This document shows positions 11,618 through 64,000 of a stretch of DNA of 64,000 bases, piece by piece (within the stretch, counting starts at the first letter, position 1; each line of letters opens with the position of its first letter). The position numbers were made by a program, and so were the translations under genes. This stretch comes from Symbiodinium sp. CCMP2592. Lineage: Eukaryota > Sar > Dinophyceae > Suessiales > Symbiodiniaceae. Location: positions 124,001-188,000 of the forward strand of contig CAJNDT010004657.1 in the NCBI GenBank assembly GCA_905221615.1. Reading direction: 5' to 3'. The notes beneath the pieces were generated by a model, which was given only the letters and a program-made list of their open reading frames with translations, was not told where the DNA came from and searched no databases.

Positions 11618-11724
11618 TATGGGTAGTTGTCAAAATTAGGGTCCCTTTTTGGGTACCCTAAATAAAAGGCTCCGTATTATAATGTGGACCCAAACAGGGA
11701 CCCTAATTTTGACAACCACCCATA
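11618..11724. mobile_element. MITE-like element, 107 bp, copy 1
   Basis: Terminal inverted repeats of 25 bp: 11621-11645 (starting GGGTAGTTGTCAAAATTAGG) and 11697-11721 are complementary at 24 of 25 positions. Including the flanks, the match extends over TATGGGT/ACCCATA, so the element can be read as bounded by TA on each side, the target duplication typical of Tc1/mariner-type MITEs. The interior is AT-rich and non-coding. A diverged relative lies at 42641-42741. Confidence 0.85.
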
Positions 11725-41440: not shown

Positions 41441-41714
41441 GGCAACATCGGACTTTGAGAAGATATGGGGTCCAAGATTTGGCCCGCTCGAATTCCAGAG
41501 TCTGGAGTCTTGGAGGGGGCTCTGACTTACTGCCTCGACAAACTGCGAAGCCGAGCCTTCATGGAGTCGCTGCCATGTTGTGATTCGACTGGAAGCTGTT
41601 CGTTCCGGCAGCCTGCAGATGTTCCCCAAATCTGAAGACACCGAAGCCCCGTCCTGCAAGCCATCCCCAGCTCTTTGAGACATGATCGTGACTGACAACC
41701 AGGATGATTCTGCA

Positions 41715-42604
41715 GCGCCAACGGAGCTGCATCACGACGTCCCATGCCCAGGCTTCAATGAATCAAGGCTTTAGCGTGTGGGCTGGGCCCCTGGGCCCTA
41801 TGAACCTGGTTCCAACGGCTATACGGCTATACCAATACTTTGCAGAAACTTCAGAGCAATGGCTCCCCAGATGAGCTGCTGCTTCCGGGTTGAGGTCTTG
41901 AGATGTCGCATTGAGAGACTGAGCTTGAGCCAGCGCTGTTGAAGGCATGTTGCCAGATTCGACAGCTCTTGCATTCCTTGGCTGCGGAGCCCAGGAGCCT
42001 GAGTCGAAGCTCCATGCTCCCACGACAGCGCAAGCCCTCATGGCCTTTGTCTTGGTGCCGTGGCTCTAATAATCAAGACCTTTCTTTTTCTGCACTTGGC
42101 GGATGTGGGCTTGCTAGTTCCTCGGGGCAGAGACGACGGTGGCAACGTTCGTCTCTCTGGTTTGTGGGGGATGTAGGCCCATGTAGGCAGCCTGCATGCT
42201 TGGAACCAGAGCCCCCACGTTGCTTTACCAACACATCAATGCTGATCCCAGCAACCTCTGCATTCTGCCCAGAAGCCCTCGGACCTGAAGTGCAGGTCTT
42301 TGTCATTCCTACCGTTGGGCTGATCGCCGCTTACCCAGATCAAGCTCGCAGTGCTGCCGGGGGGCAGTGGCTCCTGTAAAGCCAAACCTGGTCTCGGTTT
42401 TGTGTCCGATGTCCCATATGGCTTCCGAGTCGATCTGGCTGCAGGGTGGAAGTTCAGACAAGAGGGGGCGGGGTTGCTGAACCTGGACCAGCGCCTCCAG
42501 GGCGGTTTTCCTTTGAGGTCATGAAGAAGGGCAAGGACAACGGCTGGGAGGGAGCCTTCGGCTTCATCTGCTGCCTCATCACGCTCGTCTGGGCCCGGGC
42601 CCCG
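41715..42604. repeat. ~0.88-kb direct repeat, copy 1 (890 bp)
   Basis: Begins GCGCCAACGGAGCTGCATC and ends GTCTGGGCCCGGGCCCCG. Near-identical to 45511-46378 with scattered substitutions and a few indels (e.g. a duplicated ACGGCTAT near 41815-41830, and an extra GGCCCATGTA near 42177). Similarity stops abruptly at both ends. Short frames inside are shared by both copies, e.g. one containing SFEVMKKGKDNGWEGAFGF. Confidence 0.9.
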
Positions 42605-45195: not shown

Positions 45196-45510
45196 TCGCC
45201 ATCGTTGTCAAAGTCAAACCTTTCATCTCCGTGGAGTGGAGCCATGTCAATTTGAAGCCACAAGATGGTACTTCCCTAAAGCGAGTACAGCACGTTCCAA
45301 CTGTGGAAAGCCACGTGATGTCGAAATCCATCACTGGCTAGCATCGCCAGGTCAGCATAAGCCTGCCATGAATTGCATCTTCTTGTTTGGTTTCGATCTC
45401 CAAAGCACTGGGATTGAAGGGTCGATCCATGGTGAGCTTCAAGAAGTTCTTGCGGAGCTCGGCACTTGAAGCAGATCTAGGACGATGCACCAGTGGCCAG
45501 CGATGTGGCC

Positions 45511-46378
45511 GCGCCAACGGAGCTGCATCACGACGTCCCATGCCCAGGCTTCAATGAATCAAGGCTTTAGCGTGTGGGCTGGGCCCCTGGGCCCTATGAA
45601 CCTGGTTCCAACGGCTATACCAATACTTGCAGAAACTTCAGAGCAATGGCTCCCCAGATGAGCTTCTGCTTCCGGGTTGAGGCCTTGAGATGTCGCATTG
45701 AGAGACTGAGCTTGAGCCAGCGCTTTTGAATGCATGTTGCCAGATTCGACAGCTCTTGCATCTCTTTGCTGCGGAGCCCAGGAGCCTGAGTCGAAGCTCC
45801 ATGCTCCCACGACAGCCCAAGCCCTCATGGCCTTTGTCTTGGTGCCGTGGCTCTAATAATCAAGACCTTTCTTTTTCTGCACTTGGCGGATGCGGGCTGG
45901 CTACTTTCTCGGGCCAGAGACGACGGTGGCAACGTTCGCCGCCGTTTCCGGGGGATGTAGGCAGCGTGCATGCTTGGAGCCAGAGCCCCCACGTTGCTTT
46001 CCCAACACATCAATGCTGATCCCAGCAACCTCTGCATTCTGCCCAGAAGCCCTCGGACCTGAAGTGCAGGTCTTTGTCATTCCTACCGTTGGGCTGATCG
46101 CCGCTTACCCAGATCAAGCTCACAGTGCTGCCGGGGGGCAGTGGCTCCTGTAAAGCCAAGCCTGGTCTCGGTTTTGTGTCCGATGTCACATATGGCTTCC
46201 GAGTCGATCTGGCCGCAGGGTGGAAGTTCAGACAAGAGGGGGGCGGGTTGCTGAACCTGGACCAGCGCCTCCAGGGCGGTTTTCCTTTGAGGTCATGAAG
46301 AAGGGCAAGGACAACGGCTGGGAGGGAGCCTTCGGCTTCATCTGCTGCCTCATCACGCTCGTCTGGGCCCGGGCCCCG
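45511..46378. repeat. ~0.88-kb direct repeat, copy 2 (868 bp)
   Basis: Second copy of the 41715-42604 repeat in the same orientation, 2.9 kb further on. Copy-specific indels break the 146-codon frame present in copy 1 (41939-42379). No short target-site duplication is evident outside the pair. Confidence 0.9.
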
Positions 46379-54963: not shown

Positions 54964-55028
54964 GCAAAAAAAAGTAACAGAATTAAATTTGCGGGGGCCG
55001 CATTAATGGAAAATCATGCCTGGGTTGC

Positions 55029-55348
55029 TGGGGCTCCTTGGGCTCTATTAAAAACCATAGCAATGTATTGAATCTCTATTAGAAAGCCATTCAAAAAGGC
55101 TGGATGCATGGAGAAAACCTCCACTGGGGCTCTTTGGGCTCTATTAAACACCATAGCAATGTATTGAATCTCTATTAGAAAGCCATTCAAAAAGGCTGGA
55201 TGCATGGAGAAAACCTCCACTGGGGCTCTTTGGGCTCTATTAAAAACCATAGCAATGTATTGAATCTCTATTAGAAAGCCATTCAAAAAGGCTGGATGCA
55301 TGGAGAAAACCTCCACTGGGGCTCTTTGAGCTCTATTAAAAACCACAG
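55029..55348 (-). repeat. 96-bp tandem array, ~3.3 copies, open in one minus frame
   Basis: CTATTAAA landmarks at 55045, 55141, 55237 and 55333 give an exact 96-bp period, and the copies are nearly identical. On minus, one frame stays open through all copies (55014-55346, 110 codons), repeating a 32-residue unit that starts MVFNRAQRAPVEVFSMHPAF. The period is a multiple of three, so openness of one unit guarantees openness of all; translation is unproven. Confidence 0.9.
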
Positions 55349-56218: not shown

Positions 56219-56625
56219 TGTGTGCGAGAAACCCAAGCTTCCATGGGCTTAGGTCGTTTTGTTTGTTTAAGCTGCAGGGGGCCAGCGGAGGGGCAGGCAA
56301 GGTGAGTGCGTGCGCTGGCCAACGAAGACCGCGCACTCATCTACTTGTCATCTCGTGTAAACGTACCTGCAAAATCGTTGAAAGCGCCTCGATGAGTTTG
56401 TGAGTGGCGATTCCGAGTGCGAGTACAAGCACAGAGTCAGGTGAAGGTTCCAGGTGACCCTTGGCTTCGTGTTTTAGTAAGCGTCAACAGGGAAATCATG
56501 AGCCTATTGAAGACCTCCGGCAACATTTTTATTTTGAAATGTCTCAGCTAAGTATTGAGCTCATTGCTGAGTGGATTTGACCACTGAAGAACAGTTTACC
56601 AGGGAAGCCTGGGTGTTCAAGTGTG
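56219..56625. repeat. ~0.4-kb direct duplication, copy A
   Basis: Runs from the end of a (TG)n tract (56196-56224) through GAGAAACCCAAGCTTCCATG to GGGTGTTCAAGTGTG. Near-identical to 56977-57366. Copy A carries about 14 extra bases (TGAGTGGATTTGAC) near 56568-56583 absent from copy B. Confidence 0.9.
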
Positions 56626-56976
56626 AATCGGGCATGGCCTTCCGTCACGGCGCCATTACCGCTGCTCTCGAGGCAGTATCCCTTGAAACAAAGCCCCGAG
56701 TGGGACGAGTTGTACCTTGGCTAGGTCCCTAACAGGCTCAAACAACAACAGAACGGAAAGCCGTCGATGGGGTGGGGAAGTCTCTTGACTGAGTCGATTC
56801 GTGTCTTGAAATCAATGTTGAAGTCACTCTTGAATTGTTTTTCTTTTCTTTTCTTCTTGTTCCGCCCCCTTAATCCCTCACCCTAATCCGGCATCTTGGT
56901 CTGCTTCAGCAACTTTTCCTTTTCTTTTTCTTTCTCGTGTCTAGTAAGTTGTACCGTTCCTCCGGAGGAGGTACCT
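56626..56976. other. Spacer between copies A and B
   Basis: About 350 bp including a T/C-rich stretch (TTTTCTTTTCTTTTC around 56840-56940). No gene seen. Confidence 0.5.
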
Positions 56977-57366
56977 GTGTGTGAGAAACCCAAACTTCCA
57001 CGGGCTTAGGTCGTTTTGTTTGTTTAAGCTGCAGGGGGCAGCGGAGGGGCAGGCAAGGTGAGTGCGTGCGCTGGCCAACGAAGACCGCGCACTCATCTAC
57101 TTGTCATCTCGTGTAAACGTACCTGCAAAATCGTTGAAAGCGCCTCGATGAGTTTGTGAGTGGCGATTCCGAGTGCGAGTACAAGCACAGAGTCAGGTGA
57201 AGGTTCCAGGTGACCCTTGGCTTCGTGTTTTAGTAAGCGTCAACAGGGAAATCATGAGCCTATTGAAGACCTCCGGCAACATTTTTATTTTGAAATGTCT
57301 CAGCTGAATATTGAGCTCATTGCCACTGAAGAACAGTTTACCAGGGAAGCCTGGGTGTTCAAGTGT
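56977..57366. repeat. ~0.4-kb direct duplication, copy B
   Basis: Second copy in the same orientation, 757 bp downstream. It ends in a (GT)n tract (57361-57402), so a TG microsatellite borders the pair on both outer sides. This suggests the microsatellites took part in the duplication. Confidence 0.9.
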
Positions 57367-57400
57367 GTGTGCGTGTGTGCGTGTGTGTGTGTGTGTGTGT

Positions 57401-60038: not shown

Positions 60039-61965
60039 CAATGTATTCATTTATGGTTATATACATCTATGTTTGTGTGCTTTGTTTGTCATTGCTGTGC
60101 AGGGCGTGTGCTGGTAGGCTCTGTCGTGATAACGGCCACCAACAAGCTGCTTAAGTTGTTGGCGGTTAGACTCATGAACCGGCAGAAGGGATGCTTAAGG
60201 TCAGGATTGTCAAGCTGCTGTCATCATCACTGAATGGCGGGGGCTTTTCTGCATAGAGTCATAAGTGTCATCATCGTCCTCCCATCACCGCTGTCCGTCC
60301 TCTGATCCGCAGATGTTGCAAGGTACCGGCCGGCTGCTTGAGTTCGACTGAAGCTCCGTCGCACTGAGAGTCGAGGTTTGGGCTGGAGTCAGAGCCTAGA
60401 GCGCAACTGTAGTTGTAAGAATGTGCATAAATCTGCAGCTCATTAAGCCCAGAACGCCCAAACCTGATCCAAATTTGTGAGAGCCAGAAATCAGCGGAAT
60501 GCAGACGCATAGATTTCTGCGACTGTCGCGGATCCAGCGGTCATGCTCGAGACTTTGGCAAGCCCTGCAGTTCCCGAATCCAACAAACGCCAGGCACGTT
60601 ACCATTGGCTCAGAGGTACTTCAAGTTCGAGTCAGAGCACGAAGTTTCTTAATCTTTGCTTAAACGTTGAGTAGCAGCTATTCATAAGATTCGCAGCATC
60701 TCTGGCCTTCTCCATTCTCTTGCCGCACACAGAGAGCAACCCAGATGCAATTGGGCGCAAACATCACGGGGAAGTTCAGCAAAATTCATGCTTGGCGCCT
60801 GGCGCTGTGATCCAATCCTTTCTTGCTGCCTCATTGCACCCCTCAAGCATCCATTTCAGAGTCTGAGCCCCCATGCATGTCCGCAAAGTCCGCAAGCAGG
60901 CTCTTGTTTGGCACCAAGATCCACGGAAGAAGTCCAATTATCGGGACATCAACCGGGTTCGCCAGCAATTAACACCGGACACCTTAGCAGTTCGTGCTGT
61001 TGGGCTCTTGCGATGTACAGGGGGCTGCCGGTCAAAAGGAGGGCGAAGCGCCGTTTCCTTGGAAGCTGCGGCCCGGTCCAAGAAAGCTCCTTCCCGTCCT
61101 TCATGGCTTTACAGTGTCAGAAACAATGACTTCTAGTCATTCTAGTCTTTGTGGAAAGAAATCTGACAGCCTCATAGTCCTTGCTGCATCCTGTCCCCTC
61201 CACAATCAGACCATTCCTGAGATACTTGAGGTCTGCAGTCCGCAGACAGGCAATGTGCCTAGTCCAGCCTAGTTAGCACATTCACCAGCTTCCTCTGACG
61301 CTATCGGCCTGGCGGCAGCAGCCGCGGCTGCCGGTTTTGCGGCGCGATGCACCCGGAGGCTGGGAGGGGAGCACGGGGGCGGCTAAGGGTGGTGGTGGAC
61401 TAGAGCCATCACCAGACTCTTCAGTGCTCGAACGTTGGACTCCCAAGAAAACGGAGTCTGAGACTCGGGCAGCTTCACCTGCCGTCTTCCGAGAACAGGT
61501 TTAGGCTTCACTCAGTGCGGCGCTGCCAAGCCTGTCGAAGGCCCGGCGGCGGCTGCGAGCGAAGCTGGACGAGCCACTTGGCACAGGGCCGTTGGGACGG
61601 GATTTTCGCAGTTGTTCGCGGAAGTTCTGCAGTGCGAAAAGTTGGAGTCTGGCAAGCAAGTAGGAAAGCTGGGATCCACACAGTCTAGTCGTTTCTGGTC
61701 CTCGAAGCCAGTTCTGCTATGCTGTTGCCGCCCGGTACCCTCTGTTTCATCCCCAGTGGTAGTGATATTCTGCACCCGATAGTACTGGATAGGAGGAAGT
61801 GGTGCATGGGGCAGCTGCGTTGACGTCTTTGTCAAAGCAATGCTGTGCTGTATCCTTGAGGGCATTGGCTGTCAGGAATGCGTACTCCTGCTCGACTTTC
61901 TGCCAGGACAGCGGTTGCATCCACACCGGGGTTAGGTGGCAAGTCGCGACCAGGGAAGGTTGGTG
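60037..61965. other. No supported gene
   Basis: Short frames up to 117 codons on both strands; one GC-rich patch at 61310-61390. No domain or repeat recognised. Confidence 0.45.
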
Positions 61966-62222: not shown

Positions 62223-62934
62223 TGTGAGAGTGTAAGACATTACGGGCCCCATATTTTACGAGTGAATCTAGGTTTTTCGTGGATTTTATAGCTGAAAAGT
62301 AATTACTAAGATATACAGTATTGACATAGCAACCTCTTCCATAGAATACAGCTGTTATCAGAAGGCAACACGACTAGCAATCGAACATACCCGTAATCTC
62401 CGAAAATAATGCTGCCGACACCCTCATCCGAGCTGAGGCTGTGACCTCAGTATGTAACAGCTCGAAGCTAGTCTTTCAGCATGTATCCTGTATTTGCAAA
62501 CCGGACTCAAAGCACACATGCATGTTTCTTGCAATCGGTCAGGTGTTGCAACTGTAACAGCAGAGTCATCAAGGTGACTTCCGTTTGAACCACATTTGCG
62601 TGATCTAATTACGAATTTGATGGCGAATACCATCTGCGTATCACACTTCGTCCTTCTGTATGATGTCTAGGAAACGATGGGACAAAACATGTAGCATGAC
62701 ATTGTTGAAACAAGAGAATGTAAGAACATGTGATATGCCGAAGTGTGCGTGCATAAACTTGATACATTTGCGCAGTGTTCTGTGGTGAGTGTGCACTGTC
62801 ATACACGCGGATAGCAACGACGCGACATCCAAACCCGATTGGACAGGTTGGCAAACCTCTAACGCTGTCCCATCACTTCTTGACGATGCGCTTCATCATC
62901 TTGGTGGCAGGGGTCTTCTTGACGTGGCGCTTGA
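62223..62934. other. AT-rich 3' flank of the transposase-like gene; no separate gene
   Basis: No supported gene. On minus near 62870-62985 an alternative frame reads VIKRHVKKTPATKMMKRIVKK-like Lys-rich sequence from two tandem copies of a GGTCTTCTTG-containing unit, perhaps the true basic C-terminus of the transposase-like protein after a frameshift. Confidence 0.4.
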
Positions 62935-63294
62935 TCACCTGGGTGGAAGGGGTCTTCTTGTCCGCGAAGGCGCGTTAGAAGTCGCAGAAGACGCTCGTGG
63001 GGATGATGCCGGGCGTCTGCATGTGTACTTCTTGCAAGCTGGGCGCTTAAGCAAGCCGCTTGTCACAGCAGCTTGCTTCCTGGCGGAGAAGGGGTTCAAA
63101 TGATTGCGGTAGCCTTGACGAGTCAAGTCGTTGTGCCTCTGCACGTACAGCAAGACGTAGAACGCGTGAGAGCGTGGCGACTTTGTGTTGAACTGCGAGG
63201 CATAACCGCGAAACCAAGCAAAGGTTTGCTCGGCAATGGAGGTGTTGATGCCCTCCAGGCGGTTATTCAATCTTGTGCTGCAGAGGAGAGCGTG
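62935..63294 (-). pseudogene. Transposase-like protein (KDZ-related?), C-terminal part
   Basis: Minus frame reading LEGINTSIAEQTFAWFRGYA and RSHAFYVLLYVQRHNDLTRQG, then a basic Ser/Arg tail. From memory this (N-T-S-x-A-E-Q-T-F-x-W-F-R) is the conserved C-terminal box of a large transposase-like family abundant in dinoflagellate genomes, downstream of a Y-D-x-x-C motif, hence the tentative KDZ link. The frame upstream of 63292 reads unrelated sequence because the adjoining ~450 bp is inverted. Confidence 0.6.
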
Positions 63295-63742
63295 GACAGC
63301 CAGGAGCATGGCCTTTGGCGTGAAAGCGATCACCGACACATTCATGGCGGATTATACTTCTTGGTGGCACAAGCATCAGCTGACGCGCACCGAGCACATG
63401 TCCATCCGGGAGATTGTTCTTGATGGTCATGAGAAAGTGGCCACGAAATGCTCCGGTGCGCCTCCACCGCATGCCGGAAGACCCCAGAAAGACGGCAAGG
63501 AGAAACTTCGTAATAACGGCTGGTTCATGGCCATCGATCCTCGCACAGGGCTCATAGCTGCAGTACAAGAAATGCAGCAACCGGAGAATAATCAGGTGGC
63601 CCTGGATGTCGTTCATCTCGTGGCGATGAGGTCATCACAACTGGACTGCGTCGTCTATGACAGAGCCTGTAGATGCGTTCAGCAAGGCCGGAAAGACGCA
63701 CGCACCAAACACATTAAGCATTGGTGCGTTGATCGGGCCCAC
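63292..63742 (+). pseudogene. Transposase-like protein, central part, inverted
   Basis: The plus frame carries what should be the middle of the minus-strand gene: SIREIVLDGHEKVATKCS, NNGWFMAIDPRTGLIAAVQE, LDCVVYDRACRC and IKHWCVDR. Y-D-x-A-C resembles the Y-D-I-A-C box of KDZ transposases, and W-C-V-D-R precedes the C-terminal box in the family as I recall it. The segment is bounded by GTGG (63292-63295) and CCAC (63739-63742). The Trp codon (63293-63295) and His codon (63740-63742) at its edges match Trp and His codons at the opposite junctions in phase. Confidence 0.65.
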
Positions 63743-64000
63743 ATTTTCTCAGCTTCGCGGATCATGTAGTAGTATAAGCTGGCGATCCTGTACGCTTGAT
63801 TCCAGCTCGCATGCTCGTTCTCATCTTGCCATAAGACCTCTTGTTGTGCCCATGCAATGGCATTGTTGCTGACACAGCCGCGAAACTGGAGTGCATCATG
63901 GTACTCCAGGAACTCCTTTGTGAAGGCGGTGTTGCTGTTGACAAAGATGACGTCCATCTGATCATGTCGCATTGTGTTAAGCTTCTTGCCACCCTGTTTC
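63739..64000 (-). pseudogene. Transposase-like protein, N-terminal side, partial
   Basis: Minus frame open from the window edge, reading DVIFVNSNTAFTKEFLEYHD and NQAYRIASLYYYMIREAEKM up to Trp at 63739-63741. The 97-codon frame starting at ATG 63972 is also open upstream to 64000, so the real start is outside. Past the Trp codon the sequence changes to inverted DNA. Confidence 0.6.

Follow-up and report, generated by a model that had tools for sequence, protein, structure and literature searches.

Phase-variable invertible segments are known as a bacterial type of system. Small inversions are also described between the human and chimpanzee genomes, where, in PMC8755829, the definite microinversions are 17-33 nt long and mostly pure, and template switching and microhomology-mediated break-induced replication are discussed for microinversions. 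Among transposons, the systems of concern here are those of the Kyakuja-Dileera-Zisupton (KDZ) group; PMC12730594 describes Zisupton with terminal inverted repeats and 8-bp target duplications, and Kyakuja with 7-bp duplications and no inverted repeats. The locus analysed here carries, inside a transposase gene, a segment in reversed orientation, which is its likeness to the bacterial segments. Like the microinversions treated in PMC8755829, it is small and is bordered by short inverted homologies; it differs from them in being 395 bp long with a net loss of 49 bp, as against mostly pure inversions of 17-33 nt.

The window (the whole stretch of DNA that was analysed, 64,000 nucleotides) covers 64 kb of a 609-kb contig in a dinoflagellate assembly of 1,098,105,373 bases in 5383 contigs. 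Its last kilobase holds three open segments, on the minus strand from 63999 to 63679, on the plus strand at 63206-63769 and again on the minus strand from 63351 to 62938, which a preliminary description had read as one protein with a reversed middle. We consider it very probable that these segments record a single inversion event in a decayed KDZ-type transposon, mediated by microhomology, accompanied by a deletion and not reversible.

The order of the three parts was established from paralogues. A DNA search of the same assembly with 62935-64000 as the query gave at least 51 matches, only the best candidates being scored. In all 12 near-identical copies the middle lay opposite to the orientation that it has in the window, relative to both flanks: the matches to 62935-63335 and 63728-64000, some of them partial, shared one strand, and those to 63330-63735 lay on the opposite strand. 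In the more distant copies C5190, C3 and C1046, where matches were confined to the left flank and middle, these two parts also stood opposite to the window arrangement. When the C-terminal 560 aa of copy L010 served as a protein query, at least 84 matches were obtained (78 of 211 candidates scored); by our own count on those scored candidates, 11 loci had more than one match, and the window locus was the only one of these with matches on both strands. The 24-mer that spans the uninverted left joint was found assembly-wide at 12 places (nine exact, two with one mismatch and one with three), that of the inverted left joint at one place in the 1.1-Gb assembly, and that of the inverted right joint at one place exactly, with two others at three mismatches. 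No second version of the locus was found in the assembly, where the 1.2-kb insertion flank (60700-61900) occurs once. That all 12 paralogues have the other orientation shows that the window copy is the inverted and derived one, and the inversion appears to be real and confined to that copy. The paralogue search for the order of the three parts, which the preliminary description had suggested, thus favours an inversion, and its reading of one protein with a reversed middle agrees with the ordinary order seen in the near-identical copies.

The pattern of open frames is by itself suggestive, not decisive; the paralogues are the proof. A single in-place inversion frees 62938-64000 of stops, and it does the same for 11 of 2000 dinucleotide shuffles of this stretch and for 197 of the 6294 stretches of the same length taken from the window, 15 of the 197 being open without any inversion.

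The main rival, which we regard as unlikely, is that the inversion is a chimera formed during library preparation, amplification or assembly and is absent from the organism. Amplified DNA is known to contain inverted chimeras with microhomology, and the inverted order is seen in one copy only. However, the inversion sits inside the 609-kb contig, and the inverted piece and its flanks differ from the related copy C3246 to a similar degree (8 of 395 sites and 42 of 1690 sites, respectively). Nor would an assembler that had confused copies be expected to produce a pair of novel joints at which bases are missing.

Alignment of the 12 other copies, together with direct comparison with one of them, places the true joints at window positions 63332/63333 and 63727/63728 (Table 1). 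Between the same two marks there are 395 bp in the window copy and 444 in the intact order, which gives the net loss of 49 bp. Among 100,000 inverted joints drawn at random in copy C3246, 300-600 bp apart, microhomology of at least 3 bp occurred at a rate of 0.055 and of at least 8 bp at 0.00014. The 3-bp homology is within or near chance. The 681-bp region contains five inverted repeats of 8 bp or more, the 8-bp joint pair included; an 8-bp repeat as such is not unusual, and what is unusual is its position at the joint.

Table 1. Coordinates of the transposon copy, its gene parts and the inversion joints in the window
Feature	Position	Strand	Remarks
Transposon copy, part in window	62226..64000	- (gene)	Sharp left limit common to other copies; C3246 matches both sides of the inversion; continues beyond the window
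Terminal inverted repeat core AAGACATTACGGGCCCCATATTTT	62234..62257	+	Also at left ends of other copies; reversed at right ends of five
C-terminal part of transposase gene, ordinary orientation	62938..63332	-	Frame change inside; stop codon 62935-62937
Left-joint 3-bp microhomology TCA	63330..63332	.	From alignment; joint directly after
Inverted core, 395 bp	63333..63727	+	Residues ~1315-1446 of the L010 1600-codon frame
Right-joint 8-bp microhomology GTTGATCG	63728..63735	.	From alignment; net 49 bp absent here relative to other copies
Upstream part of transposase gene, ordinary orientation	63736..64000	-	Runs on beyond the window

The joints also bear on the proposal, raised in the preliminary description, of a reversible phase-variable segment that turns the transposase on and off. 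The inverted segment does lie within the coding region, and the assembly by itself shows nothing against its flipping back. Yet in place of matching inverted recombination sites joined without base loss, the window copy has microhomologies of only 3 and 8 bp that differ from each other in sequence, and it lacks a net 49 bp that no flip would restore. In further contrast to bacterial-type segments, each of the 12 other near-identical copies presents one orientation, the inverted-joint 24-mers each have a single exact occurrence, and the gene of the window copy is broken elsewhere too. Because bases have been lost and matching sites are lacking, a reversible flip is contradicted, and we give this explanation almost no weight. 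What looked suggestive is better explained by a small inversion within a single decayed copy of the transposon than by a eukaryotic phase switch.

The first description, a pure inversion with GTGG and CCAC as flanking 4-bp repeats, is almost certainly wrong: both 4-mers occur where claimed, at 63292-63295 and 63739-63742, but the aligned copies put the joints inside these marks, with bases lost, and the sequence beside GTGG reads the same way in L010. The left 4-mer lies about 40 bp, and the right one about 15 bp, outside the true joints. GTGG and CCAC pairs spaced 300-600 bp apart number 401 in the window, the joint zones, one of 61 bp and one of 51 bp, have 11 different 4-mers in common in the inverted sense, and the GTGG and CCAC in question are chance 4-mers. 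The peptide T-A-R-S-M-A-F-G-V-K, with which the inverted part had been thought to begin, is a plus-strand reading also found in uninverted L010, antisense to the intact gene. The idea that both joints keep phase fails as well, since the coordinates of the real joints add up to a value 26 away from the sum for the joints first described, which is not a multiple of three, and 395 bp stand against 444.

For the favoured reading, a one-time inversion with deletion, we propose the following course. The 8-bp inverted repeat CGATCAAC/GTTGATCG would have served to prime synthesis from an end during replication or the repair of a break, some 0.4 kb would then have been copied from the other strand, and TCA would be the point of rejoining, a process that would amount to template switching or microhomology-mediated break-induced replication. 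A close alternative would be that broken fragments were end-joined at microhomology. The 8-bp homology points to a step guided by homology. The mechanism nevertheless remains a proposal and is not proven, given that the 3-bp homology falls within chance and that the 681-bp region holds five inverted repeats that reach 8 bp or more. The locus is a clean dinoflagellate example of an inversion that came with a deletion and has microhomology at its joints.

The condition of the gene was assessed against L010, in which it is a single 1600-codon frame. Five of the 12 other copies cover residues 1-1600 in a single frame free of stops, and the remaining seven are broken or cut. The window copy aligns with the L010 frame as seven pieces of more than 70% identity and one weak overlapping row. 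It has two clear in-frame stops within well-matched sequence and two further stops near piece ends, which may reflect frame changes; besides the inversion there are five frame changes (four before it and one after), and residues 33-53 are missing. Divergence from the other copies is 2.5-4.3% in the flanks, and 8-18 of 394-395 sites in the inverted piece (8 of 360 for C3746). In a tree the window copy falls together with C2179, C1979 and C3669 at a support of 1.000, and its terminal branch measures 0.007.

The window element is a decayed transposon copy, very probably dead. In view of its other stops, its frame changes and the missing stretch, the inversion need not have been the disabling event. 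The option of a recent inversion that disabled the gene is the nearest of those put forward in the preliminary description: its derived state and its occurrence in this copy alone hold, whereas disabling does not follow where other stops and frame changes are present. Since the copy carries those further lesions, the inversion is probably both irreversible and without function. The inverted core includes the conserved D1345 and D1424 (the latter in 12 of 13 members), and the conserved E1482 lies outside it. With two conserved aspartates on the strand opposite the conserved glutamate, and on the presumption that these belong to a D-D-E site, the window copy would be unable to make a complete enzyme.

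The complete element is 8756 bp long in C3246 and about 7.2 kb between the same ends in C363. Its ends read GAGAGTGTAAGACATTACGGGCCCCATATTTT on one side and AAAATATGGGGCCCGTAATGTCTTATTTTCTG on the other. Target duplications of 8 bp are present at three of the five copies that could be read at both ends; at the other two, surrounding TA repeats leave the sites uninformative. Single frames of about 1500-1700 codons recur in the family, for example at L010:4019-8821 (-), at L024:4593-9362 (-) and at other loci of the protein search.

Assignment of the element relied on the profile PF18758 and on a set of aligned members (A1), which comprises 13 of the at least 84 protein-search matches, namely 10 of 12 stretches (two with stops being excluded) and three others. 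At E ≤ 0.01 PF18758 matched 11 of these 13, L010 not being among the 11. The L010 frame of 1600 aa had no match to the profile at E ≤ 1 and its C-terminal 560 aa none at E ≤ 0.01; the window pieces, split by the inversion, had none at E ≤ 10, and the whole 1589-aa protein of L024 reached 23.6 bits, below the cut-off of 26.6. Across the genome 25 places scored above the cut-off, 22 of them at loci also found with the L010 protein, and none was found in 14 control genomes. The relatives are 33-53% identical to the encoded protein over the aligned part. In A1, D305 and E442 are invariant and D384 is kept in 12 of 13 members; these acidic residues would be the catalytic ones of a putative D-D-E site. 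Of the cysteine-cluster (CxC) models that go with KDZ transposases, at E ≤ 0.01 CxC4 matched two of the 13 members, CxC5 one, and neither the reference member.

About 1000 aa precede the transposase part and match nothing in Pfam. A P-loop-like motif, GKGGDGKG, was read there by eye, and a short stretch of the same region may resemble Ulp1-type proteases.

Because its relatives match PF18758 and its copies have inverted ends with 8-bp duplications, the element appears to be KDZ-related and nearer to Zisupton in its ends. The ends agree with those given for Zisupton in PMC12730594 and differ from those given there for Kyakuja, with 7-bp duplications and no inverted repeats. From the KDZ group as a whole the element differs in that its own protein falls under PF18758 detection and in that the upstream part of about 1000 aa has no Pfam match. 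The carrier might, tentatively, be an undescribed KDZ lineage in dinoflagellates, characterised by a length of about 7-9 kb and by one frame of about 1500-1700 codons, with some 1000 unmatched aa ahead of a KDZ-type domain. A literature search for Zisupton together with dinoflagellates gave no paper among the matches listed; most subscription journals lie outside that search, and we make no claim that the family is unreported. A family of long KDZ-type transposons, several copies of which are uninterrupted, may be useful for annotating repeats.

Other searches were largely empty. Against viral contigs, one pattern search was without a match and another gave 11 pattern matches, none of them confirmed (two of eight scans), and a protein search of phages with the middle piece returned no relatives. 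The L010 protein had no match in Pfam, in PDB (by sequence) or in PHROGs. With the window pieces as queries Pfam gave nothing credible at E ≤ 1 and none at E ≤ 10. Several weak matches were taken as chance: HPS6_C (Pfam) for one window piece (E 0.14), CPL1-like (Pfam) for one family member (E 0.0036), allophycocyanin as the sole match of a PDB profile search (E 0.0038), and two NCBIfam dioxygenase models for L024 (E 0.0086 and 0.017), which were far under their cut-offs. Neither Rfam nor tRNA searches found anything in the window, and the spliced-leader pattern is absent from it.

The window also contains other repeats. Two direct repeats, each about 0.9 kb long and 95% identical to the other, lie 3.8 kb apart at about 41712-42604 and 45508-46378 and could be the long terminal repeats of a retrotransposon. 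A second pair of direct repeats, of about 0.4 kb, 95-100% identical and about 0.75 kb apart, is found at 56219-56625 and 56976-57367. A tandem array at 55028-55345 is built of 3.3 copies of a 96-bp unit with 98% matches, and at 11618-11724 there is a 48-nt inverted repeat with an 11-nt centre and 85% complementarity, perhaps a small non-autonomous transposon. Across the genome the peridinin-chlorophyll protein family, a dinoflagellate marker, had 143 matches, compared with none in the 14 control genomes. Large clusters of this family are carried by C1035, C784, C722 and C2391; for three of the clusters the matches lie within open frames some 3100 codons long.
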